Below are positions 9,189 to 42,053 of a stretch of DNA of 42,357 nucleotides, one piece after another. The notes under the pieces are model-generated. The model saw only the letters and a program-made list of their open reading frames with translations, was not told where the DNA came from and searched no databases. The first letter of the stretch is position 1. Each line of letters begins with the position of its first letter. Location: NCBI GenBank assembly GCA_020723255.1, contig DYJH01000005.1:2437-44793 (forward strand), in the 5' to 3' direction. The translations under genes were made by a program, and so were the position numbers. This stretch comes from Desulfonema limicola (GTDB taxonomy: Bacteria; Desulfobacterota; Desulfobacteria; Desulfobacterales; RPRI01).

Positions 9189-9221
9189 TATAGTATTTTA
9201 AACTACTAACAAGGGGTCATT

Positions 9222-19841: not shown

Positions 19842-20665
19842 TGACTATAGGCAATACAGTAAAAAATACCGCTGCATTCATAAGAACATATATAAAAAGT
19901 TCTCCGGAAATAGGTGTTCTTTCCGGCACCGGTCTGGGTGAAAGCATGAAATCAATGGATATTTCTTTTTCATGCCGATACGAGGATATCCCTAATTTTC
20001 CGCTTTCGACAGTAAAAAGCCATATCGGCAATCTTCTTATGGGCAGTTTTGAAGGACATGAGGTTATGGCCCTTCAGGGGCGTTTTCATCTTTATGAAGG
20101 ATATTCTCCTCTTCAGGTAACTTTCCCTATCAGGGTTATGCAGGAGCTTGGGATAAAAATCTTGATTTTAACAAATGCCGCGGGCGGCCTTAATCAATCG
20201 TTTCTCCCGGGCGATATAATGTTAATAACAGACCATATTAACCTGACCGGCCAGAATCCTCTTTTAGGCATCAATGACGACAGTCTGGGTATAAGGTTCC
20301 CTGATATGAGCGCGGTATATGATAAAAAATTAATTGAATCTGCCGTAAATGCCGCAAAAGAAGAGGAACTGCCTATTCAGAAAGGAGTTTATGCGGGGCT
20401 TTTGGGGCCTTCTCTTGAAACTCCTGCAGAAGTTCGGTTCTTAAAAACAATAGGCGCTGATGCAGTTGGCTTTTCAACGGTACAGGAAGTAATTGCCGGT
20501 GTTCATGCCGGTATGAGGATTCTTGGTCTTTCGGCAATAACAAATATCCATAATCCGGATAATCCTTCCCCATCAACAATTGATAAAATAATTGATACGG
20601 CGAAAAATATAATGCCAAATATAGAACTAATCATAAAAAAAGTTATAAGAAGTATTTATGAATGA
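19838..20665 (+). CDS. Purine nucleoside phosphorylase family (probable methylthioinosine/purine nucleoside phosphorylase)
   Basis: This 275-residue protein belongs to the trimeric PNP/MTAP family: phosphate loop SGTGLG (29-34), QGRFHLYEGY (80-89), LTNAAGGLN (111-119), LITDHINLTGQNPL and GLLGPSLETPAE. E194 and N236 match human PNP E201 and N243, which favour 6-oxopurines (inosine, guanosine) over adenine nucleosides. At the position of human M219 there is F212 (VGFSTVQE), an unusual change beside the ribose pocket. The gene overlaps kamA by four bases and the next deaminase by eight. With the MtaD-type deaminases downstream, a role in phosphorolysis of methylthioinosine or 5'-deoxyinosine is likely (inference). 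Confidence 0.88.
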   Translation: MMTIGNTVKNTAAFIRTYIKSSPEIGVLSGTGLGESMKSMDISFSCRYEDIPNFPLSTVKSHIGNLLMGSFEGHEVMALQGRFHLYEGYSPLQVTFPIRVMQELGIKILILTNAAGGLNQSFLPGDIMLITDHINLTGQNPLLGINDDSLGIRFPDMSAVYDKKLIESAVNAAKEEELPIQKGVYAGLLGPSLETPAEVRFLKTIGADAVGFSTVQEVIAGVHAGMRILGLSAITNIHNPDNPSPSTIDKIIDTAKNIMPNIELIIKKVIRSIYE

Positions 20666-21968
20666 TTCTTCCGTGGATCTTCTGATATCAAACGGCACAG
20701 TTGTTTTAATGGACTGTGAAAATACCATAATAGAAAACGGCGCTGTTGCTATAAAAGAAGATATTATAGCAGCTACCGGAAAAGCTGACGAGCTTTCCGG
20801 ATATAAGGCTGCAAGAACCATAGATGCAAATGGCGGCATAATAATGCCGGGTCTTGTAAATGCCCATACACATGCGTCAATGTCTATATTCAGAGGCATT
20901 GCTGACGATTTACCTCTTATGGCATGGCTCAATGAGCATATTTTCCCGGCAGAATCAAAACTCACGCCTGAAAGAGTTTACGACGGCGCTCTTCTTGCCT
21001 GTGCAGAAATGATACAAGCCGGAATCACTTGCTTTTGCGACATGTATCTTTTTGAAGACTTTGTCGCGAAGGCCGCTTCGGATGCGGGCCTGAGGGCTGT
21101 TGTCGGCGAGGTCCTTTATGACTTTCCTTCGCCAAATTACGGGCCTATAGAAAAGGGTTTCGAATACACGGAACGGCTTATTGAAAAATACCTCAATGAC
21201 CCTTTGATAAAAATTGCCGTCGAACCTCATTCCACATACCTTTGCGCACCGGAGCTACTTAAAAAAGCGTCTTTGATATCAAAAAAAAATAATCTTTTAC
21301 TGGTTATTCATGTTTCTGAAACGAAAAACGAATTATCACAGATAAAAGAAAGATATGGGCTAACGCCTGTAGAGTTTCTGGAAGATATAGGCGTATTATC
21401 TTCAAATCTTCTTGCCTGCCACTGTGTTCATCTGACCGATAACGACATTTCGCTTCTGAAAAAATATGATGTAAAAATTGCACATAACCCCGAAAGCAAC
21501 ATGAAACTTGCGTCAGGCATTGCTCCGGTTCCAAAATTACTGGAACAGGGAATATGCATTGGCATCGGAACAGATGGATGCGCAAGCAACAACAATCTTG
21601 ATATTTTCCACGAGATGAGCATGGCTGCAAAGCTCGGTAAAGTCAGCACTCTTGATCCTACGGTTATGGATGCCGGATCCGTTTTAAAAATGGCAACCAT
21701 AGATGGCGCAAGGGCTCTTGGCATATCCGATATAACCGGATCCATAGAAGCCGGTAAAAAAGCCGATATAATAATAATTGATATTCGAAAACCCCACCTC
21801 ACTCCCATGTTTAACCCGCTATCTCTTCTGGTATACGCCGCAAGAGGAAGCGATGTGATAACATCTGTTATAAACGGCAGGGTAGTTATGGAAAACGGTA
21901 ATCTGCTCACAATAAATGTTAAAAAAACAACGGAAAAAGTCAGAAGTATTGCCCTGGATATGATTTGA
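20658..21968 (+). CDS. mtaD: 5-methylthioadenosine/S-adenosylhomocysteine deaminase, paralogue 1
   Basis: This 436-residue amidohydrolase has an N-terminal beta domain, metal ligands H70 and H72 (NAHTHASM), a further His in VIHVSETKNE, the CHCVH segment, SNMKLASGIAPVP and the catalytic D306 in GTDGCASNN. These are the marks of MtaD/SsnA-type deaminases acting on methylthioadenosine, S-adenosylhomocysteine, adenosine or 5'-deoxyadenosine. The substrate segment reads EPHSTYLC rather than the more usual HSPYTC present in the next gene. The start overlaps pnp by eight bases, and its TGA overlaps the ATG of paralogue 2. Deaminase assignment is firm; exact nucleoside preference is not. Confidence 0.92.
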   Translation: MNDSSVDLLISNGTVVLMDCENTIIENGAVAIKEDIIAATGKADELSGYKAARTIDANGGIIMPGLVNAHTHASMSIFRGIADDLPLMAWLNEHIFPAESKLTPERVYDGALLACAEMIQAGITCFCDMYLFEDFVAKAASDAGLRAVVGEVLYDFPSPNYGPIEKGFEYTERLIEKYLNDPLIKIAVEPHSTYLCAPELLKKASLISKKNNLLLVIHVSETKNELSQIKERYGLTPVEFLEDIGVLSSNLLACHCVHLTDNDISLLKKYDVKIAHNPESNMKLASGIAPVPKLLEQGICIGIGTDGCASNNNLDIFHEMSMAAKLGKVSTLDPTVMDAGSVLKMATIDGARALGISDITGSIEAGKKADIIIIDIRKPHLTPMFNPLSLLVYAARGSDVITSVINGRVVMENGNLLTINVKKTTEKVRSIALDMI

Positions 21969-23299
21969 TGATGAAATACGATATAATTATTCATAACGGA
22001 ATAATCGTAACGGTCAATGAAGATTTTGACATCATAAGAGACGGCATTGTCTTTATCAGCGACGGAAAGATAGCAGAAGTATCATCAAAGCCCGATAATT
22101 ATAAGTATTTTGAAGCAAAAGAAATAATTGACGCGGCAGGCGGCATAATAATGCCGGGGCTGGTTAATGCCCATACACATCTTCCGATGACTATCTTAAG
22201 AGGGATAGGCGATGACCTCTTGCTTTCCGAATGGCTGAATAAATATATTTTCCCTTTGGAAGCAAAGTATATGAATCCTGAAACTGTAAGAATTGCTTCC
22301 TATCTTGGCTGTGCCGAAATGCTGCTTTCCGGCACAACAACCTGCTGTGACGGATATTTTTATGAAGAAGAAACAGCGCAGGCTGTGCTTGAATCCGGAA
22401 TGCGGGCTGTTCTCGGACAAGGGGTGATAGATTTTCCGGCGCCTGGAATACCTGATCCGGCAGACAACATAAAAGCGGCCATACGTTTTGTGGAAAAATT
22501 GCATAACCTATCTTCCCTGATCAAACCTTCTGTTTTCTGCCATTCACCTTATACCTGTTCCGAAGATACCCTGAAGAAAGCAAAACGAATTGCTTCGGCT
22601 GAAAAAATACTTTTTCAGATTCATGCGGCCGAAACAAAGAATGAATATGACATTATCATGTCAAGACATTCGGTTTCACCTATAAGATATCTTGAGCAAA
22701 CAGAAGTTCTTGATGAAAAGACGCTTCTTATTCATGCTGTATGGGTTGATGAAAAAGACATAAAAATTGTATCGAAGCATAACTCAAAAATTTCACATAA
22801 TCCCCAGAGCAATATGAAACTTGCATCTGGTATTTCGCCTGTGCCGGAATTTTTAAAAGAAAAAATCACAGTTGGGCTTGGAACTGATGGCTGTGCAAGC
22901 AATAATGATCCTGATATGTTCAAGGAGATGGATGCTGCAGCAAAACTGCACAAAGTTAATATTCTTGATCCTACAGTTATGGATGCCAAAACCGTAGTTC
23001 AAATGGCAACTGTTAAAGGAGCAAAAGCTATAGGTCTCGGCGATGAAACAGGAAGCATTGAAAAAGGAAAAGAGGCGGATATCATTATAATAGATACGGA
23101 TTCTCCTCATTTAATTCCTATGTATAACCCTGTTTCCCACATAGTGTATTCGGCCAGGGGCTCTGATGTAAGAGATGTGCTTGTTTCCGGAAAAATTATT
23201 GTAAGGAATAAAAGACTTTTGACCCTGGATGCAGAAGATATTATCAATAAAATTAATCTTATTGCTGCCGGGATAAAAAAAGATGTGATAATGTCATGA
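21968..23299 (+). CDS. mtaD: 5-methylthioadenosine/S-adenosylhomocysteine deaminase, paralogue 2
   Basis: This 443-residue second copy aligns end to end with the preceding protein and has the same catalytic set: H69 and H71 (NAHTHLPM), QIHAAETKNE, LIHAVW, SNMKLASGISPVP and GTDGCASNN. It retains the HSPYTCSE segment typical of characterised MtaD. ATG codons at 21968 and 21971 are both possible; the first overlaps the upstream stop as TGATG, which favours translational coupling. Its stop overlaps the ade start (ATGTCATGAG). Both copies look active, so they probably divide substrates, for example methylthioadenosine versus 5'-deoxyadenosine or S-adenosylhomocysteine (inference). Confidence 0.92.
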   Translation: MMKYDIIIHNGIIVTVNEDFDIIRDGIVFISDGKIAEVSSKPDNYKYFEAKEIIDAAGGIIMPGLVNAHTHLPMTILRGIGDDLLLSEWLNKYIFPLEAKYMNPETVRIASYLGCAEMLLSGTTTCCDGYFYEEETAQAVLESGMRAVLGQGVIDFPAPGIPDPADNIKAAIRFVEKLHNLSSLIKPSVFCHSPYTCSEDTLKKAKRIASAEKILFQIHAAETKNEYDIIMSRHSVSPIRYLEQTEVLDEKTLLIHAVWVDEKDIKIVSKHNSKISHNPQSNMKLASGISPVPEFLKEKITVGLGTDGCASNNDPDMFKEMDAAAKLHKVNILDPTVMDAKTVVQMATVKGAKAIGLGDETGSIEKGKEADIIIIDTDSPHLIPMYNPVSHIVYSARGSDVRDVLVSGKIIVRNKRLLTLDAEDIINKINLIAAGIKKDVIMS

Positions 23300-25008
23300 G
23301 CCTTGTCTCAAAAATAAAAGCTTCTCTCGGAAGTTCCGAAGCAGACATTCTTTTTACAAATGCCCGTCTTATAAATGTGTTTAACGGCGAAATTATGCCC
23401 GGTAACTTTGCCGTCAGCAAAGGCTTTTTTTCTGGTTTCGGATCTTATAATGCAAAGAAGATTATCGATCTCAAAAACTGCTTTGTTGCTCCCGGTTTTA
23501 TTGACGCTCATGTTCATATAGAAAGTTCCATGTCCTGTGTAACTGAGTTTGCAAGAGTAGTTTTTCCAAGAGGTACAACTTGCGTTATAGCCGATCCGCA
23601 TGAGATTGCAAATGTTTTAGGAAAAGCCGGAATAGACTATATGCTTGAATCAGGCAAAAACCAGCCGATTGACATATACTTCTCTTTGCCTTCGTGCGTT
23701 CCGGCAAGCGATATGGAAACATCGGGCGCAATACTTTGCGCTAAAGATCTTCTTCCTTACATAAATAACGAACGCATTGCTTCGCTTGCTGAAGTAATGA
23801 ATTTTCCCGGTGTCATTTCCTGCAATCAGGATATCCTTGCCAAAATAGAATATTCAAAAAAATATAAAAAACCAATCGATGGCCATGCGCCATATTTATC
23901 AGGTAAAAATCTTTATGCATATTTAGCGGCAGGTATTTCAAGCGACCATGAATGCACAACAGTTGAAGAAGCCACAGAGAAATTATCAGCAGGAATGCAC
24001 ATAATGATAAGGGAAGGCACTGCTGCAAAAAACCTACCCGATTTGCTTCCTATTATAAATGAAAAGAATTTTCACCGGATTATGTGGTGCACGGATGACC
24101 GCCATACTGATGATATTATCAATAATGGCCACATAGACTCAATGGTAGCAGAAGCTATAAAATACGGTATTGATCCGGTTATTGCTATACAGATGGCAAC
24201 TGTAAACCCTGCAAACTATTTCAGCCTTTATGAAAAAGGCGCTATCGCTCCAGGAAGGCATGCTGATTTTTTGGTATTTAAGGATCTATACAATCCTGTG
24301 ATTGAGCGGGTGTATTCTAAGGGAATCCTTTTGGCGCAAAATGGGATTATAGAAAATGAAGTCGAAAAGCCCGAACCTGTCTCAGTTCCCTCTGCAATGA
24401 ATGTAAAAATTAATGATATAAATTTTTCAATTCCAAGCGAATCAACCAGGATAAAAGTAATAGAAATTATTCCGGATCAGATTATAACCCGGCATATCGT
24501 AGCAAGGGCAAATATTGTAAATGGCATGGCCGTTTCGGATATATCAAGTGATATGTTAAAAATATGTGTTATCGAAAGACATCACGGCTCCGGGAATATC
24601 GGTAAAGGTTTTGTCAAAGGATTAAACCTGAAAAAAGGGGCGATTGCATCAACGGTTGCCCATGATTCCCATAATATAATTGTTGCCGGAACAAACGATG
24701 AAGATATGAAAGCCGCCGTGAACGCGGTTATTCAAATGGGGGGCGGACTTTCGGCTGCGACTGATGGCAATGTTTGCGGAACGCTTTCTCTTCCTATTGC
24801 AGGCCTGATGTCAAATGAAACTGTTTGTGATATTAATAAAGATATGAAGAATCTTATTTCAATTACACAATCTTTAGGTTCATCACTATCTGATCCATAT
24901 ATGGCGCTTTCATTTCTTGCTCTTCCGGTAATTCCGGAACTTAAAATTACCGATAAAGGGCTTGTTGATGTTGCTAAGTTTTGTATTGTGCCGCTTTTTG
25001 AACCGTGA
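23296..25008 (+). CDS. ade: Adenine deaminase
   Basis: This 570-residue amidohydrolase is close to the family's usual 570-590. It carries AHVHIESS (H72, H74), FPRGTTCVIADPHEIANV, the DGHAPYLSGKNLYAYLAAG segment, HECTTVEEA, TDDRHTDD and a C-terminal domain with IGKGFVKGLNLKKGAIASTVAHDSHN (in part), all typical of bacterial adenine deaminases that use Fe or Mn. It converts adenine to hypoxanthine plus ammonia in the cytoplasm. The start overlaps the preceding stop by four bases. Within this operon it would handle adenine, suggesting that phosphorolysis can occur before as well as after deamination. Confidence 0.95.
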   Translation: MSLVSKIKASLGSSEADILFTNARLINVFNGEIMPGNFAVSKGFFSGFGSYNAKKIIDLKNCFVAPGFIDAHVHIESSMSCVTEFARVVFPRGTTCVIADPHEIANVLGKAGIDYMLESGKNQPIDIYFSLPSCVPASDMETSGAILCAKDLLPYINNERIASLAEVMNFPGVISCNQDILAKIEYSKKYKKPIDGHAPYLSGKNLYAYLAAGISSDHECTTVEEATEKLSAGMHIMIREGTAAKNLPDLLPIINEKNFHRIMWCTDDRHTDDIINNGHIDSMVAEAIKYGIDPVIAIQMATVNPANYFSLYEKGAIAPGRHADFLVFKDLYNPVIERVYSKGILLAQNGIIENEVEKPEPVSVPSAMNVKINDINFSIPSESTRIKVIEIIPDQIITRHIVARANIVNGMAVSDISSDMLKICVIERHHGSGNIGKGFVKGLNLKKGAIASTVAHDSHNIIVAGTNDEDMKAAVNAVIQMGGGLSAATDGNVCGTLSLPIAGLMSNETVCDINKDMKNLISITQSLGSSLSDPYMALSFLALPVIPELKITDKGLVDVAKFCIVPLFEP

Positions 25009-25039
25009 GGGTGAATATGCCGTTAAAAGGAAAAAGCCA

Positions 25040-26146
25040 ATGTTAGATTTAAGATCTTCCAAAAAACGATCTCTTAGGCCAATATGGCTTGATGACAAAC
25101 AGGATACAGTCAAAATCATTGATCAGAGGCTTCTTCCGCATAAGCTTGTAATTGTTGATCTTAAAACCGTAGATGACGTTATAACTGCGATCAAAGATAT
25201 GTACGTAAGGGGAGCTCCTCTTATAGGAGTAACGGCAGCATACGGGGTTTATCTTTGTGTATTAAGCCTTTTAAAAAATCCGGCCGGAGATGATTTTATT
25301 ATCAGCGAGTGCGACAGAATAAAATCAACAAGACCGACAGCCATAAATCTTGCATGGGCAACCGATAGAGTTTTGAAAAAAGTTCTTTCCTCAACAGGCA
25401 TTCAAGGGAAAATATTGGCAGCACGTGATGAAGCCGGAACAATAACTGAAGAAGAAGTTAAAAACTGCAGAGATATAGGCATTCATGGCCTCGAAATAAT
25501 AGAAAAAATAAGCCGAAATAAAAAAAATAATACAGTAAATATTTTGACTCACTGCAATGCAGGCTGGCTCGCCTGCATTGAATACGGTACGGCAACCGCT
25601 CCAATATATGCTGCGCATGAAATAGGGCTGGATGTCCACGTATGGGTTGACGAAACGAGACCGCTTAACCAGGGAGCAAGATTAACAGCCTGGGAATTGG
25701 GAAAACGCGGTGTAAAACACACAATAATAACCGATAATGCCGGCGGGCACCTTATGCAAAACGGCATGGTTGACATAGTAATTGTCGGAACAGACAGAAC
25801 GACATATAAGGGGGATGTCGCCAACAAAATAGGAACTTATTTGAAAGCGCTTGCTGCAAAAGATAATAATATACCATTTTATGTAGCCCTTCCATCAAGC
25901 ACTTTTGATTGGGATACCGGGACCATAAAAGATATGCCTATTGAGTTGCGCAACCCTGACGAAGTTCGCTTTGTTCAGGGGCTTGATAGTGATCTTATAA
26001 AAAGCGTTCTTATTGCCCCAAAAGAAAGCCCTGCTGCGAATTTTGCATTTGATGTTACCCCTTCAAGACTTGTCACAGGTTTTATTACTGAAAGGGGAAT
26101 ATGCAATGCCGCAGATATCAGCAAGCTTTTTCCGGAAAAGATTTGA
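25040..26146 (+). CDS. mtnA: S-methyl-5-thioribose-1-phosphate isomerase
   Basis: Starting at ATG 25040, with AAAAGGAAAAAG upstream, the protein has 368 residues; upstream extension to 24962 would run deep into ade and is rejected. Family motifs are YVRGAPLIGVTAAYG (55-69), STRPTAINLAWA, catalytic C172 in THCNAGWLAC, ETRPLNQGARLTAWEL, catalytic D252 in VIVGTDRTT and NKIGTY. It isomerises methylthioribose-1-phosphate to methylthioribulose-1-phosphate and, in some organisms, deoxyribose-1-phosphate analogues. It differs from eIF2B alpha-like relatives by retaining both catalytic residues. It closes the salvage block; no mtnB aldolase or later mtn gene is in the window, so the fate of the ketose phosphate is not shown here. 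Confidence 0.94.
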   Translation: MLDLRSSKKRSLRPIWLDDKQDTVKIIDQRLLPHKLVIVDLKTVDDVITAIKDMYVRGAPLIGVTAAYGVYLCVLSLLKNPAGDDFIISECDRIKSTRPTAINLAWATDRVLKKVLSSTGIQGKILAARDEAGTITEEEVKNCRDIGIHGLEIIEKISRNKKNNTVNILTHCNAGWLACIEYGTATAPIYAAHEIGLDVHVWVDETRPLNQGARLTAWELGKRGVKHTIITDNAGGHLMQNGMVDIVIVGTDRTTYKGDVANKIGTYLKALAAKDNNIPFYVALPSSTFDWDTGTIKDMPIELRNPDEVRFVQGLDSDLIKSVLIAPKESPAANFAFDVTPSRLVTGFITERGICNAADISKLFPEKI

Positions 26147-26279
26147 ATTGCAATTTGCTTGACAACGCAATTTTCTTGAAATAGTTTCTAATATCTTTAA
26201 ATGGGCAATTCGGAAGTTATACAAAGGTCTCGCGCTGCTATCCCGGTTTAGGAACATGAAATAAAAAGGAATGGAACTG

Positions 26280-27716
26280 ATGAAGATTAACAGAGTTATA
26301 CTTTTCGGTTTGTTTTTGTTATCTGTTGTGTCGCCTACTGTGGCTTTCGGGGGCGGTGAGTGTAAACCGGCATATCTCAGCCTGGGTGTAATGCTTCCTC
26401 TTTGGAGCTGTATTCCGTTTTGGTGTATGCTTTTTTCAATAGCTCTTTTTCCTCTTTTTGCCCCTGACTTCTGGCATCATCATTTCGGCAAAATTTCTTT
26501 TTTCTGGGCAGCCTCTTTAGCCGTTCCTTGCCTTATTGTTTACCGGGGGTTGGCGTTATATGAAATTCTTCATATAATTATTATAGATTACATACCCTTT
26601 ATTATCCTGCTCTGGTCGCTTTATGCCGTATCGGGCGGCATTTTACTGCGCGGCACACTGGTTGGAACTCCTCTTGTAAATACCTGTATGCTTGTTGTCG
26701 GGACGCTGCTGGCTTCATGGATGGGCACAACAGGAGCGGCCATGCTTATGATTCGTCCTTTTTTAAGGGCAAACAGTCACAGAAAACACCGTGCTTTTAT
26801 GGTGGTGTTTTTCATATTTTTAATCGCGAACGTGGGGGGTGGCCTCACACCTCTTGGCGATCCCCCGCTATTTTTGGGATTTTTGCATGGCGTGCCGTTT
26901 TTCTGGACATTTAATATTGCCCCCCACCTTATTTTGGTGGCAGGCCTTCTTCTTGTTTGTTATTTTTTTATGGATGCCTATCATTATCGCCATGAAAAGC
27001 ATAAAAAAATTGATCCCAAAGATAAAGTGCCCCTTGGACTGGAGGGGAAACATAATTTCCTTTTCATTGCCGCAATTGTAGGAGCAGTTTTTATGAGCGG
27101 CATGGTTGACTGGGGAGAGGTTTCTGTATTCGGGGTGCATACCTCTGTGCAGGATCTGGTCAGAAATGGACTTTTGCTTATGATTGGGACTCTTTCAATA
27201 GTAACCACACCAATAACTGTTTATGAAGAAAATAATTTTACATGGGCGCCGATCGTTGAAGTTGCTTATCTTTTTATCGGCATTTTCATTACAATGATTC
27301 CCTGCTTGCTGATTCTGAAAGCAGGCAGCAATGGAGCCCTGTCTTTTTTTATTAATTCGGTGCAGCAACCGGCGCATTATTTCTGGAGCACTGGGATATT
27401 TTCGAGCTTTCTCGACAATGCGCCGACTTACCTTACTTATTTCAACACAGCCCTGGGGAAATTTTACTCATCCTGTCCGGAACCTGATGCTGTGTCCCGT
27501 CTCATTGCTGAAAACCCGATATATCTTAAAGCCATTTCCGCTGGGTCGGTTTTCTTTGGGGCATGCAGCTATATCGGCAATGCTCCAAACTTCATGGTAC
27601 GTTCCATAGCCGAAGAAGCCGGAACCCCTATGCCAAGCTTTTTCGGCTATATTTTAAAATATACGTTTGTATTTCTTATTCCGATCTTTGCAATAGTAAC
27701 TTTTATCTTTTTCTAG
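26280..27716 (+). CDS. Sodium:proton antiporter of the citrate/arsenite (IT) transporter superfamily
   Basis: The ATG at 26280 is preferred because AAAAAGGA lies nine bases upstream; it is two bases from an earlier ATG at 26271. The product has 478 residues, an N-terminal hydrophobic segment and about eleven membrane spans. Superfamily motifs are the first re-entrant loop NVGGGLTPLGDPPLFLGF and the second, GACSYIGNAPNFMV, near the C-terminus, with LDNAPTYLTYFN between. The pattern is that of NhaD-like/CitMHS_2 proteins, generally annotated as sodium:proton antiporters. A universal stress protein follows after 12 bases, as is common for ion transporters. Transport of an organic anion rather than Na+/H+ cannot be excluded. 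Confidence 0.85.
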   Translation: MKINRVILFGLFLLSVVSPTVAFGGGECKPAYLSLGVMLPLWSCIPFWCMLFSIALFPLFAPDFWHHHFGKISFFWAASLAVPCLIVYRGLALYEILHIIIIDYIPFIILLWSLYAVSGGILLRGTLVGTPLVNTCMLVVGTLLASWMGTTGAAMLMIRPFLRANSHRKHRAFMVVFFIFLIANVGGGLTPLGDPPLFLGFLHGVPFFWTFNIAPHLILVAGLLLVCYFFMDAYHYRHEKHKKIDPKDKVPLGLEGKHNFLFIAAIVGAVFMSGMVDWGEVSVFGVHTSVQDLVRNGLLLMIGTLSIVTTPITVYEENNFTWAPIVEVAYLFIGIFITMIPCLLILKAGSNGALSFFINSVQQPAHYFWSTGIFSSFLDNAPTYLTYFNTALGKFYSSCPEPDAVSRLIAENPIYLKAISAGSVFFGACSYIGNAPNFMVRSIAEEAGTPMPSFFGYILKYTFVFLIPIFAIVTFIFF

Positions 27717-27728
27717 GGAAGGTGAAAT

Positions 27729-28616
27729 ATGAAATTTGAAAAAATTTTGTTTAATACACGTTTCAGAGATAAGGCAGTCAACGCTCTTGAAGAAATGCTG
27801 GATCTGACGGCAGTAGGTCTTAAAGAAATTATCCTGGTTTATGTTATCCCGAGAGAAAAAGTGGCCTTTGTACCTTACGGAGGTTATCAGAAAGAAAAAG
27901 AATTGGAAATAAAGAAAAAAGTTTCTGATAAATTTGAAAAATGGGGTGCAGTTCTCGCAAAAAAGGGTGTTAAAAGTAAAATACGCATTGAAGTCGGTAT
28001 GCCTAATGCCATTATTCTTTCAATAGCTGAAAAAGAAAAAGTGGATATAATCGTTGCCGGAAGCAAGAAGCGTACATTGCTTGAAAAAGTCTATGTCGGC
28101 ACTCACTTGCTGGATCTTACACGCCGCAGCCCGGTTCCCATACTGATGAATAAGTACATAGCCGAATATGAACAAGACGGTAAAATAATAACACGTGTTA
28201 ATGAACATATCTTTAACCGTCCCATGCTTGCCACGGACTGGTCCTGCCCATCCTCTAATGCGCTTGACGCTTTGATATCACTTAAAGGGCTGGCTACTAA
28301 AGTGATAGTAGCTCATAACATAGGCCTTAAAATAACCAAGGCTATGAGTCCGGCTCAGTTTCAGGAAATAAAAAAGGAAAGCCGAAAGAGGCTTAATGAA
28401 TACAGGCACCGTTTAACTGATGCAGGTCTTTATGTGGAAACAAGCCTGACCTCCGGAAGGACTGTGCCTGAGCTAATTAAAGTTTCGCGCAAACATAATG
28501 CTTCTATGATTGTTATGGGCAGAACCGGCAAAGACTGGCTCAGCCAGTATTGGTTGGGCGGGGTATCCCACAGGGTTGCAGAAATTTCAGAATTGCCTGT
28601 ATTGCTTATTCCGTGA
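27729..28616 (+). CDS. Universal stress protein with two Usp domains
   Basis: This 295-residue protein has two tandem Usp domains, about 1-145 and 160-295. The C-terminal domain ends in the ATP-binding pattern G-x2-G-x9-G (MGRTGKDWLSQYWLGG) followed by SHRVAE and PVLLIP; the N-terminal copy has VAGSKKRTLLEKVYVGTH with a more degenerate glycine pattern. An AGGGAAGGTG ribosome site supports the start. It lies 12 bases after the antiporter gene, so it probably senses energy or nucleotide state for that transporter (inference). Confidence 0.92.
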   Translation: MKFEKILFNTRFRDKAVNALEEMLDLTAVGLKEIILVYVIPREKVAFVPYGGYQKEKELEIKKKVSDKFEKWGAVLAKKGVKSKIRIEVGMPNAIILSIAEKEKVDIIVAGSKKRTLLEKVYVGTHLLDLTRRSPVPILMNKYIAEYEQDGKIITRVNEHIFNRPMLATDWSCPSSNALDALISLKGLATKVIVAHNIGLKITKAMSPAQFQEIKKESRKRLNEYRHRLTDAGLYVETSLTSGRTVPELIKVSRKHNASMIVMGRTGKDWLSQYWLGGVSHRVAEISELPVLLIP

Positions 28617-36090: not shown

Positions 36091-37230
36091 ATGGAAGCAA
36101 TCAACAAAATCAAAGCACACATTATGTCCGGGTTAAATGATTTAATACAGGCAAAAGAACGGGGAATTAAAATTATTGGTTATTTGCCCGGGGGTTATTT
36201 TCCGGAAGAGCTTGCAATAGCTGCCGGAGCAATGCCTGTATGCATGATCCGTGGCGGAAATCATGCTTGTGTTGAAGCTTCTATAGCCTATATAGACCGA
36301 TGGCTGGATACCTTTTATCGCGCCCAGATAGGTTCCGGTGTTTCAGGTACGGATCCGTATTATAATATAATTGATGTCCTGATCGCTCCGATAACTGATA
36401 GTAACAACAGGGCGCTTTCCGATACTCTCGATTATCATACGGATATAGATATATTCCCCTTTGGTGTTCCCCATAAAAAAGAAGAATCAGGTTACCTGTA
36501 CTATCTTCATGGCTTAAAAAGAGTTAAGATAAAATTAGAACAGTTAACAGGGGTGGAGATTACTAAAGAGCGGCTCAAGGAAGCCATTTTGCTATGTAAT
36601 AAAGAAAGGGAGCTTTTAAAAAAGATAAGTCTGATGCGAAAAACAGAGACCGTGCCAATAACCTCCAAAGACTTTGTGATGATTAATCATGCCGCTATGA
36701 TAATTGATAAAAAGGTGCTTATAAGATACCTGGAATCACTTATTCAGGAATTGCAGGAAGCGGATTCAGTCAATTCAAAGGGACCCCGGCTCCTACTGAC
36801 AGGATCGACTCTTGCAATGGGCGATGGCAAGATACTGGATCTGATTGAAGAGGCGGGCGGAAAGGTGGTTATTGAAGAATTTGCTGAGGGGATCAAGTTT
36901 TATTGGCAAAATGTAAAAACTACCGGCGATCCAATAGAGGCTCTGGCTCAGGCTTATTTTACGGACCGTATTGTACCGGCCTGGTTCAGGCCGGCCGGTG
37001 AGCGGCTGAACCATTTGGTTCAACTGGCAAAGGATTTTTCCGTAGATGGCGTTATCTGGTACCAGTTAATGTACAGAGAGTCTTATAAAATTGAGTCTTA
37101 TTATTTTCCCGAAATACTTGAGAAAGAAACAGGCCTTTCCATGCTTACATTAGAATCCGATTATGACCCCTCCGAAATCGGGCAGATGCGGACACGCATT
37201 GAAACCTATCTTGAAAGCATAAGGGGGTGA
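36091..37230 (+). CDS. HgdB/BcrC-like (beta-type) subunit lacking the cluster cysteines
   Basis: At 379 residues it matches the length of HgdB of 2-hydroxyglutaryl-CoA dehydratase and aligns along its length: IGYLPGGYFPEELAIAAGAMP (29-49), the region VLIAPITDSNNRALSD (96-111), a helical middle and the C-terminal EIGQMRTRIETYLESI. HgdB has cysteines in FYCTIAQQ, TPVLCDT and MQFCDPE; here the aligned stretches read DTFYRAQ, APITDS and YQLMYRES. The only cysteines are C51, C60 and C169. It therefore probably cannot bind the usual 4Fe-4S cluster and may be structural or substrate-binding. AAGGAGG precedes the ATG. First gene of a five-gene block. Alignment is by eye against remembered sequences. 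Confidence 0.85.
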   Translation: MEAINKIKAHIMSGLNDLIQAKERGIKIIGYLPGGYFPEELAIAAGAMPVCMIRGGNHACVEASIAYIDRWLDTFYRAQIGSGVSGTDPYYNIIDVLIAPITDSNNRALSDTLDYHTDIDIFPFGVPHKKEESGYLYYLHGLKRVKIKLEQLTGVEITKERLKEAILLCNKERELLKKISLMRKTETVPITSKDFVMINHAAMIIDKKVLIRYLESLIQELQEADSVNSKGPRLLLTGSTLAMGDGKILDLIEEAGGKVVIEEFAEGIKFYWQNVKTTGDPIEALAQAYFTDRIVPAWFRPAGERLNHLVQLAKDFSVDGVIWYQLMYRESYKIESYYFPEILEKETGLSMLTLESDYDPSEIGQMRTRIETYLESIRG

Positions 37231-37235
37231 TTATA

Positions 37236-38660
37236 ATGGCTTATTATCATGAACTTCTTAAGCTTTGTGCATTTGATGAAACTGAAATAGTCAGCCAAAA
37301 GGAAAGGATTGAAAGAACCTTTCAAATACTGGAATTAGGTCCAGCCGATATGGAAAAAGCCGTGGCACGGATCCAAAAATATTTTGACACCCGACTTATG
37401 GGCGTACGAAAAGCTATTGGCGTATGGTTTAAAGAACTTTTTGATCTTATTCTTTGCCGTTATGAGGGTAAAAAAATCATATACTATGGATATCCCCCGT
37501 TCCAATATATTGGTCTGGCAATTAAGGCTGCGGCAAAGTCAAAAAACGATTTTTACGTGGGTTGCCCTGAAGCTATTGTGTCTCAAACACTAGGTCAATT
37601 CTTCCATAAACTTGTGCCTGTGCTGGAGGCTGGAGAAGGGGCGGGATTGCCGCCCGGGCATGCCATGTGCTCACTGCTGCAGGTGAAGGTAGGAGCTCTT
37701 GAAAAAGGGATTATACCGATTCCGGATCTTTCTATTGCAACCAGTTATTTCTGTGATATGGGGCCTAAGGCCGATGAACTCATGCAATATAAGTACGGTT
37801 ATCCTGTCGAATATATCGATAGCTGTCTGGATTCGCCGTGGGGATTGTGGCCTGAGTATGATCATGAGACTGTCAGATATTTGGGCGCACAACTCGATAA
37901 ATTGTTTTGTACGCTAAAAAATATGTTCGGAATAGAAATAAACGATTATGTATGGCAGCAGGGAAGACTCATAGCCGGAAGGCTCTATAAGGCCATAAAC
38001 AAATTGACCAGGTATTTAACAGCCGATCCGGTGCCTCTGGGTGTGGCTGATTCTGAATTGATATTGAATTTCCCGATAGGCTGTACAGGAAGCGTAATGG
38101 ACGAAGGCGCAGAAGCCATTGAGATACTGGCTGATGAAATAGGAAAGCGTGTGCAAAAAGGGATCGGTGTTGTTTCGAAAGGAAGCCCAAGAGTTCTTAT
38201 AGTCTTACAGAGCATATCAGATCCCGCTGTTAATCGCCTTATAGAAGATGTGGGCCTTGCGGTACCGACTACAATGGCTTTATTGCCGCCTCCTCCTGAG
38301 CCTGAGTCATATCCTTTTTCCACCCTTGGTGAAAAAAGGGCGGAGAAAGCTATGTTCGGCGGCGCCTATCACAGCACCTACGGCATGGTTAAAAGAATTG
38401 AAGCGAGCTTAAAATATGCTCATGTAGATGGAATTATTTACAATTATCCATTCAGTTGCCGTCCCTTTGTGTGCAGCAACAAACTTACAAAACTTCATAT
38501 AGAAAAAGAAACCGGACTGCCGACGCTCCTTTTAGATATGGATCCTCAAGATGAGCGGAATTACTCTCAAGGATCGATGCGAACACGTCTTGAAGCATTT
38601 GCCGAAATGCTAAAGCAAGAAAAGTTGCGGCATAAAAAATCAGACATTAAATCATTATAG
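37236..38660 (+). CDS. HgdA/BcrB-like (alpha-type) 2-hydroxyacyl-CoA dehydratase/benzoyl-CoA reductase subunit 1
   Basis: The ATG at 37236 is chosen because AAGGGGGTGA lies seven bases upstream; a GTG at 37227 lies inside that site. The 474 residues match HgdA (about 477). Predicted 4Fe-4S ligands are C145 (GHAMCSLL), C173 (SYFCDMGPKA) and C408 (YPFSCRPFVC), the last aligning with HYNRSCKPW of HgdA. The end NYSQGSMRTRLEAFAEML aligns with NFNAAQYETRVQGLVEAM. Extra cysteines C11, C110, C283 and C413 are also shared with the second copy. The family uses ATP-driven electron injection from an activator to make a ketyl radical (dehydratases) or reduce an aromatic ring. The substrate is not visible. 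Confidence 0.88.
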   Translation: MAYYHELLKLCAFDETEIVSQKERIERTFQILELGPADMEKAVARIQKYFDTRLMGVRKAIGVWFKELFDLILCRYEGKKIIYYGYPPFQYIGLAIKAAAKSKNDFYVGCPEAIVSQTLGQFFHKLVPVLEAGEGAGLPPGHAMCSLLQVKVGALEKGIIPIPDLSIATSYFCDMGPKADELMQYKYGYPVEYIDSCLDSPWGLWPEYDHETVRYLGAQLDKLFCTLKNMFGIEINDYVWQQGRLIAGRLYKAINKLTRYLTADPVPLGVADSELILNFPIGCTGSVMDEGAEAIEILADEIGKRVQKGIGVVSKGSPRVLIVLQSISDPAVNRLIEDVGLAVPTTMALLPPPPEPESYPFSTLGEKRAEKAMFGGAYHSTYGMVKRIEASLKYAHVDGIIYNYPFSCRPFVCSNKLTKLHIEKETGLPTLLLDMDPQDERNYSQGSMRTRLEAFAEMLKQEKLRHKKSDIKSL

Positions 38661-38767
38661 CTTATTGCCGATTTTTTTGAGAGGTTTTTGATATATATTT
38701 TGTTGGAAATAGAGTTTCAAGTAAACCTTAATACTGCCAATCATTAAAGGAGGGTATAACCATAACA

Positions 38768-39826
38768 ATGGAAACAAAACGAGAAGCCAAAAGCGATGTG
38801 CAGTTATTCGAAGACATGAGCCATTCAGACAAACTACCCGGAAACACTGATTTCATGGAGGATTACGCAAATCTTATCATGGGTGAGTCAGAAGGTTACG
38901 ATTTTTGTTTAGTCCCTAATTTCTGGCACATCGGGGGAGGAAAGAAGGGTAAATGGCGGGTAGACGATGCTTTAATGGTTCAAACCACTTTTTTGATGTT
39001 GCCAAAGAACCAACGAGGCAGGATGAAAGATAATAACTTCATCGGTAACCGCCTGGATCCTACAGAATGGACAGGCGATTATTCAATCAAGCAGGAGAAT
39101 GATAAAATAATCTGGCAGAGGGATAACATCCGATATATTTCTCGTCCTCCCTACTGGGAAATTAAAGGAAATCATATGGGTGTTGCCTACGATCTGATTA
39201 TTGGAGGTATGGGTAATGCTACCCGTACTTTCGGAGCATGGTCAGACCTTGCTAAAACAGGCCGGGCCGGTTATGATCAGCGCTGCTGGGCAGAAGGCAC
39301 TATAACTGTTGGGGGCAAGACATATAAGCTTGAAAAGGGCTATGCCATTCATGAAAGGCTGACTTTTGGCGAACACTATGACCCCATGGAATCCATGCTT
39401 ACGCCCTACTACTGGGTAGTGGGCATGAACGAGTCGTTGCAGATATATTTCTTTACCCTGCCTGGCGAGGGAATAAGTTTCGGCCGGATATATATGGATG
39501 GAAAAGAAATTCCCTTTGGACAGGGCGAGATCACAATAGATGAGCTGGAATTGTGGACAGACCCTAAAACCAGCATGCAAGTTCCCATACGCTGGCATGT
39601 TAATATGAACTCGGCAGGTGGTATTGTGGACATGTATATGGCCGCAGGAGGAAGGGGAATCTTTTGTTTCTTATCTCGCACGGGCTATACCGTGCGTTAC
39701 CCGTTCATGGCGCAAACTAATGTCCGCATCTTTGTCCCTGATGGAAATAACCTTCTAATAAATGATATGATAACCTATGTGGAGTGGGGCAGAGCAGCCA
39801 TGCCATTGGAGGGAGGAGTTCCTTAA
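38768..39826 (+). CDS. Uncharacterised beta-rich protein, possibly CrtC/AttH lipocalin-like
   Basis: I do not recognise this 352-residue protein with confidence. It has no signal peptide or membrane segment, is rich in Trp, Gly and Tyr, and shows a two-part beta pattern. Possible hallmarks are LVPNFWHIGGGKKGKWRVDD (26-residue region near 45-70), ISRPPYWEIKG, a GYAIHERLTFG element near 198-208 that recalls the GxGYxxHxWG stretch of carotenoid 1,2-hydratase/AttH proteins, and WHVNMNSAGGIVDMYM. If right, it is a cytoplasmic double-lipocalin fold that may bind or hydrate a hydrophobic substrate. A GGAGGG site lies 13 bases before the ATG, longer than ideal. It sits between the two alpha-type subunit genes, 107 bases after the first and 20 before the second, implying a role in the same pathway. 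Confidence 0.7.
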   Translation: METKREAKSDVQLFEDMSHSDKLPGNTDFMEDYANLIMGESEGYDFCLVPNFWHIGGGKKGKWRVDDALMVQTTFLMLPKNQRGRMKDNNFIGNRLDPTEWTGDYSIKQENDKIIWQRDNIRYISRPPYWEIKGNHMGVAYDLIIGGMGNATRTFGAWSDLAKTGRAGYDQRCWAEGTITVGGKTYKLEKGYAIHERLTFGEHYDPMESMLTPYYWVVGMNESLQIYFFTLPGEGISFGRIYMDGKEIPFGQGEITIDELELWTDPKTSMQVPIRWHVNMNSAGGIVDMYMAAGGRGIFCFLSRTGYTVRYPFMAQTNVRIFVPDGNNLLINDMITYVEWGRAAMPLEGGVP

Positions 39827-39846
39827 ATCTGTAGGAGATAAATAAA

Positions 39847-41265
39847 ATGACTTACTATAATGATCTGCTTAAGTTATGTGCATTTGACGAGTCCGAAATA
39901 CTCAGTCAAAAAGACCGGCTTGAAAGAACCTTCCAGATACTTGGATTAGGCCCTGCCGACTTTGAAAAAGCTGAGGCACGTGTCAATGAAAGTTTTGATA
40001 TTGAGCTTATGGGTATCAGAAAGGTTCTTGGCATATGGCTCAAAGAGCTGTTTGATGCCGTCCTTGCCAGGGAAGAAGGTAAAAAAATTATATATTTTGG
40101 ATACCCGCCTTTTCAATATACCGGTTCTGTAATCAAGACTGCCGCAGGATCAAAAAATGATTTTTATGTGGGTTGTCCCGAAATAGTTATCTGCCAGACG
40201 CTTGGCCAGATATTTGATAAACTTATACCGTTGCTTGAAGCTGGAGAAACAGCGGGATTACCGCCCGGGCATGCTATGTGCTCCTTGCTCCAGATAAAAC
40301 TTGGCGCCATAGAGAAAGGTTTTATACCTGTCCCAGACCTGTCTATCGCAACCAGTTATTTCTGCGATATGGGCCCTAAGGCAGAAGAACTGATGCAGAA
40401 TAGATATGGTTATCCTGTCGAATATGTCGATGGCAGCCTTGATTCACCCTGGGGGGCATGGCCTGATTACGACCGTGAGACTGTTTATTATCTGGGAGGA
40501 CAGGTTAACCGGCTTTTTGGAACCCTTAAAGACAAATTCGGGCTTGAAATCAACGAGAAGGTATGGGAAAAGGCCGGACTGGTTTGCGGAAAGCTTTACA
40601 TGTCCATAAATGAACTGGGCAAGTATTTAACAGCCGATCCCGTTCCGCTTAGCGTGGCTGATACTGAATTGATATTGGGCATTCCTACGGCTTGTACTGG
40701 TATTGCTGTGGAAGAAGGTCCGGAAGCCATTAGGATCCTTGCTGAAGAAGTAGGGAAAAGAGTTGAAAAAGGAACAGGGGTTGTTCCCAAAGGAAGTCCC
40801 AGAGTCGTCATCCTCTTGCAAAGCTTATCCGATACTGCCGTTAACCACCTGATTGAGGAAGCGGGCATGGCAGTGCCCCTTACCATGGTTATGTTGCCTC
40901 CTGTGCGGCCTCCCGAACCATATCCTTATCCGACCCTTGGTGAAAAAAGAGCTGAACAGGCTATGTTTACCGGCGCTTACCATAGTACTTACGGCTGGAT
41001 TAAGCGGAATATTGATAGTTTGAAGCTTGTTGATTTAGACGGTGTAATCTATTCTTATCCATTCAGTTGCCGTCCGATAGTATGTACAAGCAAGCTGACA
41101 AAACTGGAAATTGAAAAAGAGACAGGACTTCCTACTCTTTTGTTGGAACTGGATATTTATGACAAGCGGAATTATTCCATAGCTTCATTGCGAACACGTC
41201 TTGAAGCATTTGCCGAAATGCTGAAGGCAAAAAAAGCTCAGGTTAATAAGGAAAAGGCCAAATGA
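39847..41265 (+). CDS. HgdA/BcrB-like (alpha-type) subunit 2, close paralogue of subunit 1
   Basis: This 472-residue protein aligns with the product of 37236-38660 without a single gap; about three quarters of the first 200 residues are identical by my count. C145, C173 and C408, the predicted cluster ligands, are conserved, as are C11, C110, C283 and C413; C74, C197 and C225 of copy 1 are not. AGGAG lies ten bases before the ATG. The stop overlaps the activator start (ATGA). The paralogues may form an alpha-alpha' heterodimer in which one copy replaces the electron-relay role lost by the beta-type subunit, or two isoenzymes sharing the other parts (both inference). Confidence 0.88.
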   Translation: MTYYNDLLKLCAFDESEILSQKDRLERTFQILGLGPADFEKAEARVNESFDIELMGIRKVLGIWLKELFDAVLAREEGKKIIYFGYPPFQYTGSVIKTAAGSKNDFYVGCPEIVICQTLGQIFDKLIPLLEAGETAGLPPGHAMCSLLQIKLGAIEKGFIPVPDLSIATSYFCDMGPKAEELMQNRYGYPVEYVDGSLDSPWGAWPDYDRETVYYLGGQVNRLFGTLKDKFGLEINEKVWEKAGLVCGKLYMSINELGKYLTADPVPLSVADTELILGIPTACTGIAVEEGPEAIRILAEEVGKRVEKGTGVVPKGSPRVVILLQSLSDTAVNHLIEEAGMAVPLTMVMLPPVRPPEPYPYPTLGEKRAEQAMFTGAYHSTYGWIKRNIDSLKLVDLDGVIYSYPFSCRPIVCTSKLTKLEIEKETGLPTLLLELDIYDKRNYSIASLRTRLEAFAEMLKAKKAQVNKEKAK

Positions 41266-42053
41266 CAGAGCAATCTTCGATTGTGGCCGGAATAGATATT
41301 GGGGCCGCAACTGCAAAGGCAGTGGTTTTAAATGGCATCAAACTGATATCGTCTTATGTTATGCCGACCGGAGAAAATGTCAAGAAAGCTGCGTGGTTGG
41401 TAATGAAGCAGGCACTTGGGGAGGTTGGCATGACCATAGACGATATTGGGTATATCATTGCAACCGGTTATGGAAGAAGAAAGGTGGAATTTGCCAATGA
41501 AGTTATAACCGAAGTTTCCTGTCATGCAAAGGGCGTCAACTCGCTTCTGCCTGAGGCAAGGACTGTAATAGATATCGGCGGGCAGGACAGTAAGGTTATA
41601 ACGGTTGATAATAAAGGAAACATTATCAATTTTGCGATGAATGACAAATGTGCGGCCGGCACCGGAAGATTTCTTGAAGTCATGGCCAGAGCGCTGAATG
41701 CAGAGATAGAAGATATCGGGCAGATTTCTTTAAATGGACTTTTGCCGTGCCAGATCAGCAATACCTGCACCGTGTTTGCTGAGTCGGAAATGGTGACTTT
41801 AAGAGCTGAAGGTGAAAGCCGTGAAAATATTCTTGCCGGAATTCATGATGCGATGGCACATAGAGTTGTTATTATGGGTAAAAGTATTGGTTTTAAAAAC
41901 CAGATTGTTTTTACGGGTGGAGTTGCCAGAAACACAGGGATGAAAAAGGCCCTGGAGAAAAGAATAGGAGAAGGTATAACAGTTCCTGAAAAGCCACAAA
42001 TAATCGGTGCTCTTGGAGCCGCAATAATTGCAAGAGGTAAAGTTTTACTTTAA
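41262..42053 (+). CDS. ATP-dependent activator (HgdC/BcrD-like) of the dehydratase/reductase
   Basis: This 263-residue ASKHA-fold ATPase matches HgdC (about 260). It has phosphate 1 DIGAATAK (12-19), ATGYGRR (67-73), phosphate 2 DIGGQDSK (104-111), the cluster-ligand cysteines C130 in NDKCAAGTGRF and C169 in SNTCTVF, and adenosine motif TGGVARN. Homodimers of this family share one 4Fe-4S cluster at the interface and drive ATP-dependent low-potential electron transfer into the partner enzyme. A single activator gene fits the homodimeric dehydratase type better than the BcrA/BcrD heterodimer of class I benzoyl-CoA reductase. The start overlaps the previous stop; AAGGAAAAGG lies upstream. Confidence 0.93.
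   Translation: MTEQSSIVAGIDIGAATAKAVVLNGIKLISSYVMPTGENVKKAAWLVMKQALGEVGMTIDDIGYIIATGYGRRKVEFANEVITEVSCHAKGVNSLLPEARTVIDIGGQDSKVITVDNKGNIINFAMNDKCAAGTGRFLEVMARALNAEIEDIGQISLNGLLPCQISNTCTVFAESEMVTLRAEGESRENILAGIHDAMAHRVVIMGKSIGFKNQIVFTGGVARNTGMKKALEKRIGEGITVPEKPQIIGALGAAIIARGKVLL

Follow-up and report, generated by a model that had tools for sequence, protein, structure and literature searches.

An ATP-activated, dehydratase- or reductase-like operon of Desulfonema limicola whose beta subunit lacks the cluster-ligand cysteines of its relatives

The last genes of a 42,357-nucleotide stretch of a Desulfonema limicola genome (contig DYJH01000005.1, positions 2,437 to 44,793; "the window" below means this whole stretch, not the operon, and its end is the end of the contig) form a five-gene operon related to benzoyl-coenzyme A (CoA) reductases and 2-hydroxyacyl-CoA dehydratases (the BCR/HAD superfamily). 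The surprise in this operon is not its extra gene, which encodes a lipocalin-like protein, but its beta-type subunit, which is without cluster ligands and has a conserved Asp-Asp-Arg set where its relatives have cysteines. By its sequence, the enzyme lies within the superfamily and yet departs from a defining feature of each named member with which it was compared. Whether it is an ATP-activated radical enzyme of the BCR/HAD family in which each alpha-beta pair has only one catalytic [4Fe-4S] cluster seems to us evenly balanced. The best reading of its reaction is the dehydration of CoA thioesters, with a reduction less likely, although sequence cannot decide between the two. The genes and sites concerned are the following.

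36091..37230, + strand: beta subunit (HGD-D; BzdN/HadC/DCCP-like), 379 amino acids (aa), without cluster ligands
36307-36309, 36397-36399 and 37075-37077, + strand: D73, D103 and R329 of beta, each Cys in relatives
37227..38660, + strand: alpha1 subunit (HadB/BzdO-like), 477 aa from GTG, 474 aa from ATG at 37236
38661..38767, + strand: intergenic gap between alpha1 and the lipocalin gene, 107 bases
38768..39826, + strand: lipocalin-like protein (predicted AttH / kievitone hydratase / 25-phosphosteroid lyase fold), 352 aa
39847..41265, + strand: alpha2 subunit, paralogue of alpha1, 472 aa; C11, C145, C173 and C408 kept
41262..42053, + strand: ATP-dependent activator (HadI/MbdQ-like ATPase), 263 aa; C130 (DKCAAGTG) and C169 (NTCTVFAESE)

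The operon and its beta subunit

Five co-directional genes with one 107-base break, encoding one beta-type subunit, two alpha-type subunits and one ATP-dependent activator, had been described in a sequence-only reading of this DNA. This layout is confirmed here, and the subunit types are borne out by Pfam: HGD-D (PF06050, cut-off 28.4) is matched by beta at 245.2 bits (1.9e-72) and by the two alphas at 99.2 and 95.8 bits (4.8e-28 and 5.1e-27), and BcrAD_BadFG (PF01869, cut-off 31.5) by the activator at 212.2 bits (1.3e-62). The PF06050 subunits and BcrAD_BadFG-type ATPase that mark the superfamily are therefore both present above curated cut-offs. The open reading frames (ORFs) of beta and alpha1 overlap if GTG is the start of alpha1, and the alpha2 and activator genes share four bases. 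A congeneric genome (G072) has beta, alpha1, the lipocalin gene and alpha2 in the same order, with 88, 86, 84 and 83% identity; its 103-base gap can be aligned with the 107-base gap before the lipocalin gene of the window, and both gaps hold AAAGGAG, which resembles a ribosome-binding site. Because this order is conserved, and because the ratio of nonsynonymous to synonymous substitution rates (dN/dS) between the window and G072 is 0.09-0.13 for these four genes, the operon is not a chance arrangement. The contig ends 304 bases beyond the activator gene, so the operon may continue further; the assembly as a whole (3.67 Mb, 217 contigs) is 87% complete.

The NCBIfam equivalog cut-offs are reached neither by beta nor by either alpha, the scores of beta being 226.4 against 350 for the double-cubane family (NF040772), 101.6 against 453.8 for BzdN and 101.4 against 700 for HadC. 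A profile of 21 betas was aligned to BzdN, DCCP and HadC, with positions counted by hand along the alignments; DCCP was its best match (5.5e-69), and BzdN was matched at 3.2e-50. Cys36, Cys73, Cys100, Cys263, Cys293 and Cys327 of BzdN are reported as ligands of an [8Fe-9S] cluster, and the second HAD subunit is described as carrying a [4Fe-5S] cluster (PMC11971306). In the window beta, D73, D103 and R329 align to cysteines of BzdN (Cys73, Cys100 and Cys327), DCCP and HadC, G34 aligns to BzdN Cys36, and Ala and Pro stand at the two remaining BzdN ligand positions. None of the six BzdN ligands is thus kept as Cys, and the only cysteines of the protein (51, 60 and 169) lie at no ligand position. 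The subunit lacks both the three cluster cysteines of a 2-hydroxyacyl-CoA dehydratase, which HadC keeps, and the double-cubane ligands of the BzdN-type subunit of a class I benzoyl-CoA reductase (BzdNO, 8s02). DCCP and DCCP-R (6eno, 7yyl) provide the best beta profile match and the top structural match of alpha, but DCCP is reported to form homodimers in which each subunit holds a double cubane (PMC11971306), whereas the operon encodes two subunit types, with a beta that has no ligands, and not a single-gene homodimer. The sequence-only reading had held that the set matches neither textbook enzyme; this stands, mainly for a reason that it had not seen, the missing cluster cysteines of beta. 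A conventional enzyme, either a 2-hydroxyacyl-CoA dehydratase or a class I benzoyl-CoA reductase, that has merely been duplicated would share the Pfam families and the fold, but with equivalog scores so far under the cut-offs and a beta without cluster ligands, it is a very improbable explanation. Decay of the beta gene was considered and rejected, as its dN/dS against G072 is 0.094.

The same replacement is widespread among close relatives. A contig scan with an alignment of 19 alphas gave 94 stretches that encode a relative, of which 80 were kept, the first 33 loci (L065-L097) forming the close family; betas and alphas were counted as members of the family only if they scored >150 bits to the window proteins. 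Of 31 family betas, 29 cover all three positions (73, 103 and 329), which read D-D-R in 24, C-D-R in two (L050 and L051, both G072) and C-C-C in three (L053, L092 and L097_3730), while two partial betas (L052 and L084) cover 329 only and have R there. Nine beta-type paralogues served as a control; they come from the source genome, were chosen by BLAST from 11 loci out of a larger set of 26 PF06050 matches, and have Cys at 8/8, 9/9 and 9/9 of the covered positions. In a quick tree of the betas (no bootstrap; the three ligand columns removed; rooted on the controls, one of them long-branched), the C-C-C betas branch outside a clade (Shimodaira-Hasegawa-like approximate likelihood ratio test, SH-aLRT, 97) that unites the remaining 26, and C-D-R is nested within D-D-R. 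The fewest changes on this tree are three; one of them is spurious and comes from a partial control row scored as a state of its own. Since the C-C-C betas lie outside that clade, a single loss of the cluster ligands within the family is probable.

What the altered site does may be read in two ways. The pocket may simply have lost its cluster, as the one-cluster reading would have it, or it may be occupied, with the two Asp residues, with or without the Arg, ligating a cluster or a mononuclear metal, or binding a substrate carboxylate or phosphate, as a second active site. The latter draws on the finding that neighbouring residues such as F75, Q79 and T102 are likewise invariant within the 24-member D-D-R group, where a vacated pocket would be expected to drift; the C-D-R members L050 and L051, however, show that one of the positions can change, and we regard an occupied site as unlikely. 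In the literature, covered mainly at the level of titles and the openings of abstracts, no description of a cluster-free beta was noticed.

Alpha subunits, activator and the recurring cassette

Contrary to the earlier description of the alphas as nearly identical, alpha1 and alpha2 share 69% identity. Their HGD-D match starts only at about residue 145 (residues are numbered from the ATG at 37236; GTG-based numbers are 3 higher). Three cysteines, C145, C173 and C408, align in profile alignments to the cysteines of HadB. In BzdO, the catalytic [4Fe-4S]-OH2 cluster is reported to be held by Cys95, Cys128 and Cys380 (PMC11971306); here C145 aligns to Cys95 and C408 to Cys380, and C173 falls on Cys129, one column off the ligand Cys128 at a gapped place. 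The three cysteines that hold the open-site catalytic [4Fe-4S] cluster in alpha-type subunits of the superfamily are therefore found, and in the family they are kept in 43/43 (C145), 43/43 (C173) and all 42 covering alphas (C408). These counts, like those of neighbouring genes below, omit the alphas of L070 and L071 (the latter the same place as L054), which are hidden by longer opposite-strand ORFs. Unlike HadBC, the window alphas have an N-terminal extension of about 75 residues with a fourth, nearly invariant cysteine, C11 (40/41, the sole exception being a Lokiarchaeota protein at L092); in the predicted structure, the first 73 residues are mainly helical and C11 would sit directly behind the first helix. 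This AlphaFold2 model (predicted local distance difference test, pLDDT, 86.9; predicted template-modelling score, pTM, 0.89) matches DCCP best by Foldseek E-value (4e-18), matches HadB (3o3m chains A and C) with a query template-modelling (TM) score of 0.70 and a root-mean-square deviation (rmsd) of 3.7, and matches BzdO and MbdO too. His131 of BzdO was considered as a marker of reductases and dropped, as MbdO is without His there in the alignment. A search of plasmids for alpha gave no match.

The activator is nearest, among solved structures, to HadI (4eht; 3.1e-70, 239.6 bits) and MbdQ (3.1e-67, 229.8 bits), followed by HgdC (1hux) and the DCCP activase. It has both cysteines of the bridging cluster, C130 and C169, and the two are present in 23/23 activators of a set chosen by the first motif. 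A one-gene activator with two cluster cysteines per monomer, as in 2-hydroxyacyl-CoA dehydratases, is thus what the window shows up to the contig end 304 bases on, and in relatives with long flanks (such as L067, L072, L081 and L094) one activator likewise lies directly behind alpha. L096 encodes, about 0.8 kb farther along, a protein of 1375 aa that matches the activator at 34%. Class I reductases such as BzdNO and MbdONPQ (9gai, a 3-methylbenzoyl-CoA reductase) have two activator genes, against the one seen here. Altogether, a single activator gene nearest to HadI would mildly favour the dehydratase type.

The recurring unit, judged by gene order, is three genes, beta-alpha-activator. Beta, alpha and activator stand together at 16/30 loci (three G072 repeats left out), with the order alpha-activator-beta at L097. 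As lower bounds, since several loci end nearby, and with ten loci omitted as copies, a beta lies within 1.6 kb of at least 31 of 43 alphas, and a same-strand activator within 3 kb of at least 24 of 43. The close-family records are metagenome-assembled genomes (MAGs), whose titles name Proteobacteria, Desulfobacterales, Deltaproteobacteria, Syntrophaceae, Dehalococcoidia/Chloroflexi, Acidobacteria, Spirochaetes, Bacteroides and Lokiarchaeota; matches to alpha1 at E <= 1e-60 are found in 4/146 genomes of the order and 7/395 of the phylum, the source genome included in both counts. The Lokiarchaeota MAG at L092 has an archaeal beta-alpha-activator cassette with a C-C-C beta and the sole full-length alpha without the N-terminal Cys. 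In G218 (C23) and G350 (C84), one in-frame stop (TAA/TAG) is listed within three alpha matches; uninterrupted alpha ORFs of 460-494 aa are present there (L063, L059 and L062), and the stop may be the end of the match.

With beta-alpha-activator as the recurring unit, the architecture of one beta, two alphas and a further protein, which had been put forward as defining, does not define the enzyme. The order with the lipocalin gene between two alphas, and alpha2 itself, were seen in one other genome only, the congeneric G072; the claim that the 352-residue gene is conserved beside these subunits thus holds there (L049 being the counterpart of the window), and at the remaining loci, some of them short, the gene was not seen by the cassette, with the partial exception of G072 L051, where it lies farther off (about 4.6 kb between gene centres). 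In a quick tree of the alphas (no bootstrap), the alpha1 pair (SH-aLRT 99) and the alpha2 pair (100) join each other at 97, next to L066 and L067 with their single alphas, which places the duplication within the lineage of this genus.

This branching also bears on the idea that alpha1 and alpha2 form a catalytic heterodimer with two clusters, as in HAD enzymes, and that beta is an assembly or regulatory subunit. Both alphas do keep all cluster ligands, two-alpha loci recur (alpha-beta-alpha-activator at L088, alpha-alpha-activator at L061) and 12/43 alphas, some of which stand where a contig or locus ends, lack a beta within 1.6 kb. Such loci are few, however, and with beta close to 31/43 alphas it is the usual partner of alpha; as the split into alpha1 and alpha2 is confined to the lineage of this genus, we consider a heterodimer quite improbable.

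Genes near the cassettes may hint at the substrate. Within 3 kb, measured between gene centres, short-chain dehydrogenases/reductases (SDRs) occur at five loci; a CoA-ligase-like gene together with an HMPTM-type radical S-adenosylmethionine (SAM) gene is found at four (L050, L085, L088 and L090; grouped by BLAST, with Pfam run on members from L085 and L090 only), with a MaoC-type gene as well at L090. It is the CoA-ligase-like/radical SAM set that may point to a substrate; the recurring SDR, CoA-ligase-like and radical SAM neighbours fit CoA-ester chemistry in general.

A proposed reaction and its alternatives

The sequence-only reading had proposed an ATP-driven radical dehydratase or reductase, and protein families, fold and ligands lend this good support. 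The proposal that we favour is the following. The activator, encoded by one gene and acting as a dimer, would hydrolyse ATP and pass one electron straight into the cluster of alpha, where the bound CoA thioester would be reduced to a ketyl-type radical. This radical would expel water or a different leaving group, and the electron would be recycled, as in 2-hydroxyacyl-CoA dehydratases. Beta would be a structural half that supports alpha, its cluster pocket being taken up by an Asp-Asp-Arg network. Alpha1-beta and alpha2-beta may be alternative enzymes for related substrates that share beta and the activator, and the lipocalin-like protein might act as a lyase, hydratase or isomerase in an adjoining step, or might present the hydrophobic substrate. 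In homodimeric relatives the activator cluster is placed above the dimer axis, and electron transfer would then not strictly depend on a relay cluster in beta. A redox-neutral dehydratase, with one recycled electron, would fit one cluster and one activator gene better than a two-electron reductase. HadBC/HadI (3o3m, 4eht) are like the window system in the fold of alpha (TM 0.70), in the three alpha cysteines that fall on those of HadB and in the single activator gene.

Several findings weigh against this proposal. By Foldseek E-value, the top match of alpha is DCCP, a small-molecule reductase, and not HadB; as a match to the activator, MbdQ, from a reductase, nearly equals HadI (229.8 vs 239.6 bits); in G072 no activator lies behind alpha2; both beta and an activator are near only 17/43 alphas, again a lower bound; and the two Asp and the Arg of beta could be metal or cluster ligands in their own right.

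The first two of these points belong to the case for a net two-electron reductase of enoyl-, dienoyl- or aryl-CoA, in which the activator would fire once per electron and alpha would work like BzdO, with the iron-bound water as hydrogen donor. Such an enzyme would be in keeping with a beta nearest to DCCP and BzdN, both from reductases, with an alpha that matches BzdO and MbdO besides DCCP (two BzdO ligands exactly, the third one column off), with the near tie between MbdQ and HadI, and with a genome that holds 26 PF06050 and 15 PF01869 matches. On the other hand, the double cubane of BzdN is thought to collect electrons (PMC11971306), its ligands are absent from beta, and one activator gene was found instead of two, a count limited by the contig end. 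A reductase is a serious possibility, held at clearly lower confidence than the one-cluster enzyme.

If a one-cluster enzyme is indeed at work, evolution has made a single-cluster variant and kept it as a strongly conserved family, which would be a natural test of the role of the second cluster. That role is otherwise difficult to probe: according to Fuchs et al., single-cluster BzdNO variants would be needed to assign electron paramagnetic resonance (EPR) signals, and Cys-to-Ala variants had failed because of instability (PMC11971306). It would also follow that electrons can be injected at the expense of ATP without a relay cluster in the partner subunit, that a simpler enzyme is at hand for the study of CoA-ester radical activation, and that a cassette found in several phyla represents a distinct enzyme.

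The lipocalin-like protein and its genomic setting

The 352-residue protein had been called unrelated; it is lipocalin-like and has copies elsewhere in the genome. Lipocalin_9 (PF17186) is matched at 22.3 bits, below the gathering score of 26.2, and no solved relative was found by sequence, not even when an 18-member profile was used and E-values up to 1 were allowed. Its predicted model (18-row alignment, pLDDT 92.5) is nearly all-beta and gives Foldseek matches with E-values of 1e-10 to 1e-8, query TM scores of 0.47-0.59 and rmsd values of about 7 to 12, with kievitone hydratase and AttH on top and with the fungal Diels-Alderases Phm7, CghA and Fsa2 and the 25-phosphosteroid lyase also among them. 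The model thus suggests the lipocalin-like fold of the AttH and kievitone hydratase group (2ich, 7a0t, 9fzn, 6kaw; TM 0.48-0.59 for AttH / kievitone hydratase); unlike these proteins, however, the 352-aa protein is set apart by the large rmsd, by the absence of a sequence match and by a Lipocalin_9 score below the cut-off. A W263-x-D265 motif is conserved in its alignment, and the catalytic His/Trp/Tyr/Asp set of CrtC (PMC4717167) was considered beside it, unaligned, as a lead. Identity with the 25-phosphosteroid lyase was rejected, there being no sequence match to 9fzn and the homologue of that lyase in this genome lying elsewhere (L022:7583-8671).

Among the 146 genomes of the order, the protein is found at E <= 1e-30 only in its own genome (8 copies) and G072 (10 copies), and among the 395 genomes of the phylum, a sample that probably does not contain G072, at E <= 1e-5 in its own genome only, where seven further full-length copies and one fragment are present. 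A plasmid search gave a single distant match, a Novosphingobium gene with 24.9% identity whose surroundings include SDR, acyl-CoA dehydrogenase, MaoC and phosphotransferase genes. The paralogues adjoin molybdenum hydroxylases, molybdopterin oxidoreductases (PF00384), aldehyde:ferredoxin oxidoreductases (AFORs), SDRs and FAD oxidoreductases, as well as USP, MMPL, YCF48-like, DUF1302 and DUF1329 genes; DUF1329, USP, YCF48 and MMPL are described as part of a "Nanopod" cluster in a benzene-degrading Desulfobacterota strain (PMC13101534). The view of the lipocalin as a fixed third part of the enzyme is weakened, since it was not seen adjoining the cassette outside the genus and its copies mostly lie beside other catabolic genes.

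A cluster on contig C168 has the homologue of the 25-phosphosteroid lyase (L022:7583-8671, 5.5e-35) adjoining an APH-type kinase (8671-9747), possibly a pair for ATP-dependent dehydration of a tertiary alcohol. In Sterolibacterium, a 25-hydroxysteroid kinase and a lyase that was putative at the time are reported jointly to dehydrate a tertiary side-chain alcohol of steroids (PMC8449060, PMC11061730). From the neighbourhoods of the lipocalin paralogues, including this lyase/kinase pair, the genus probably degrades hydrophobic, perhaps isoprenoid, compounds, which for the operon of the window is context and not proof; this context suggests a hydrophobic, perhaps isoprenoid, substrate. A broader proposal would see a branch in which the pocket of the second subunit has turned into a conserved Asp-Asp-Arg site, with one-cluster radical chemistry, coupled in this genus to a lipocalin-type lyase or isomerase, and thus a new anaerobic route for hydrophobic, isoprenoid or polycyclic CoA esters. 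This is offered tentatively, as a rather unlikely whole.

In G072, contig C143 has at about 65-135 kb (L155, L156, L157 and L051) a long catabolic region. Four lipocalin-like genes are accompanied there by SDRs, molybdenum enzymes, AFOR and nanopod-like genes, and the second beta-alpha cassette of this genome, which is of C-D-R type, also lies in it; the region is partly syntenic with C168 of the source genome, on which no beta-alpha cassette was seen. The 26 PF06050 and 15 PF01869 matches within the 3.67 Mb of the source genome (loci L009-L020 and L029-L040) imply several further BCR/HAD-type systems. Elsewhere in the window, at 18786-28616, a gene run with a LAM-like radical SAM protein, a nucleoside phosphorylase, two amidohydrolases, an adenine deaminase, an IF-2B-type isomerase, a CitMHS-type transporter and a USP protein looks like nucleoside or methylthioadenosine salvage.

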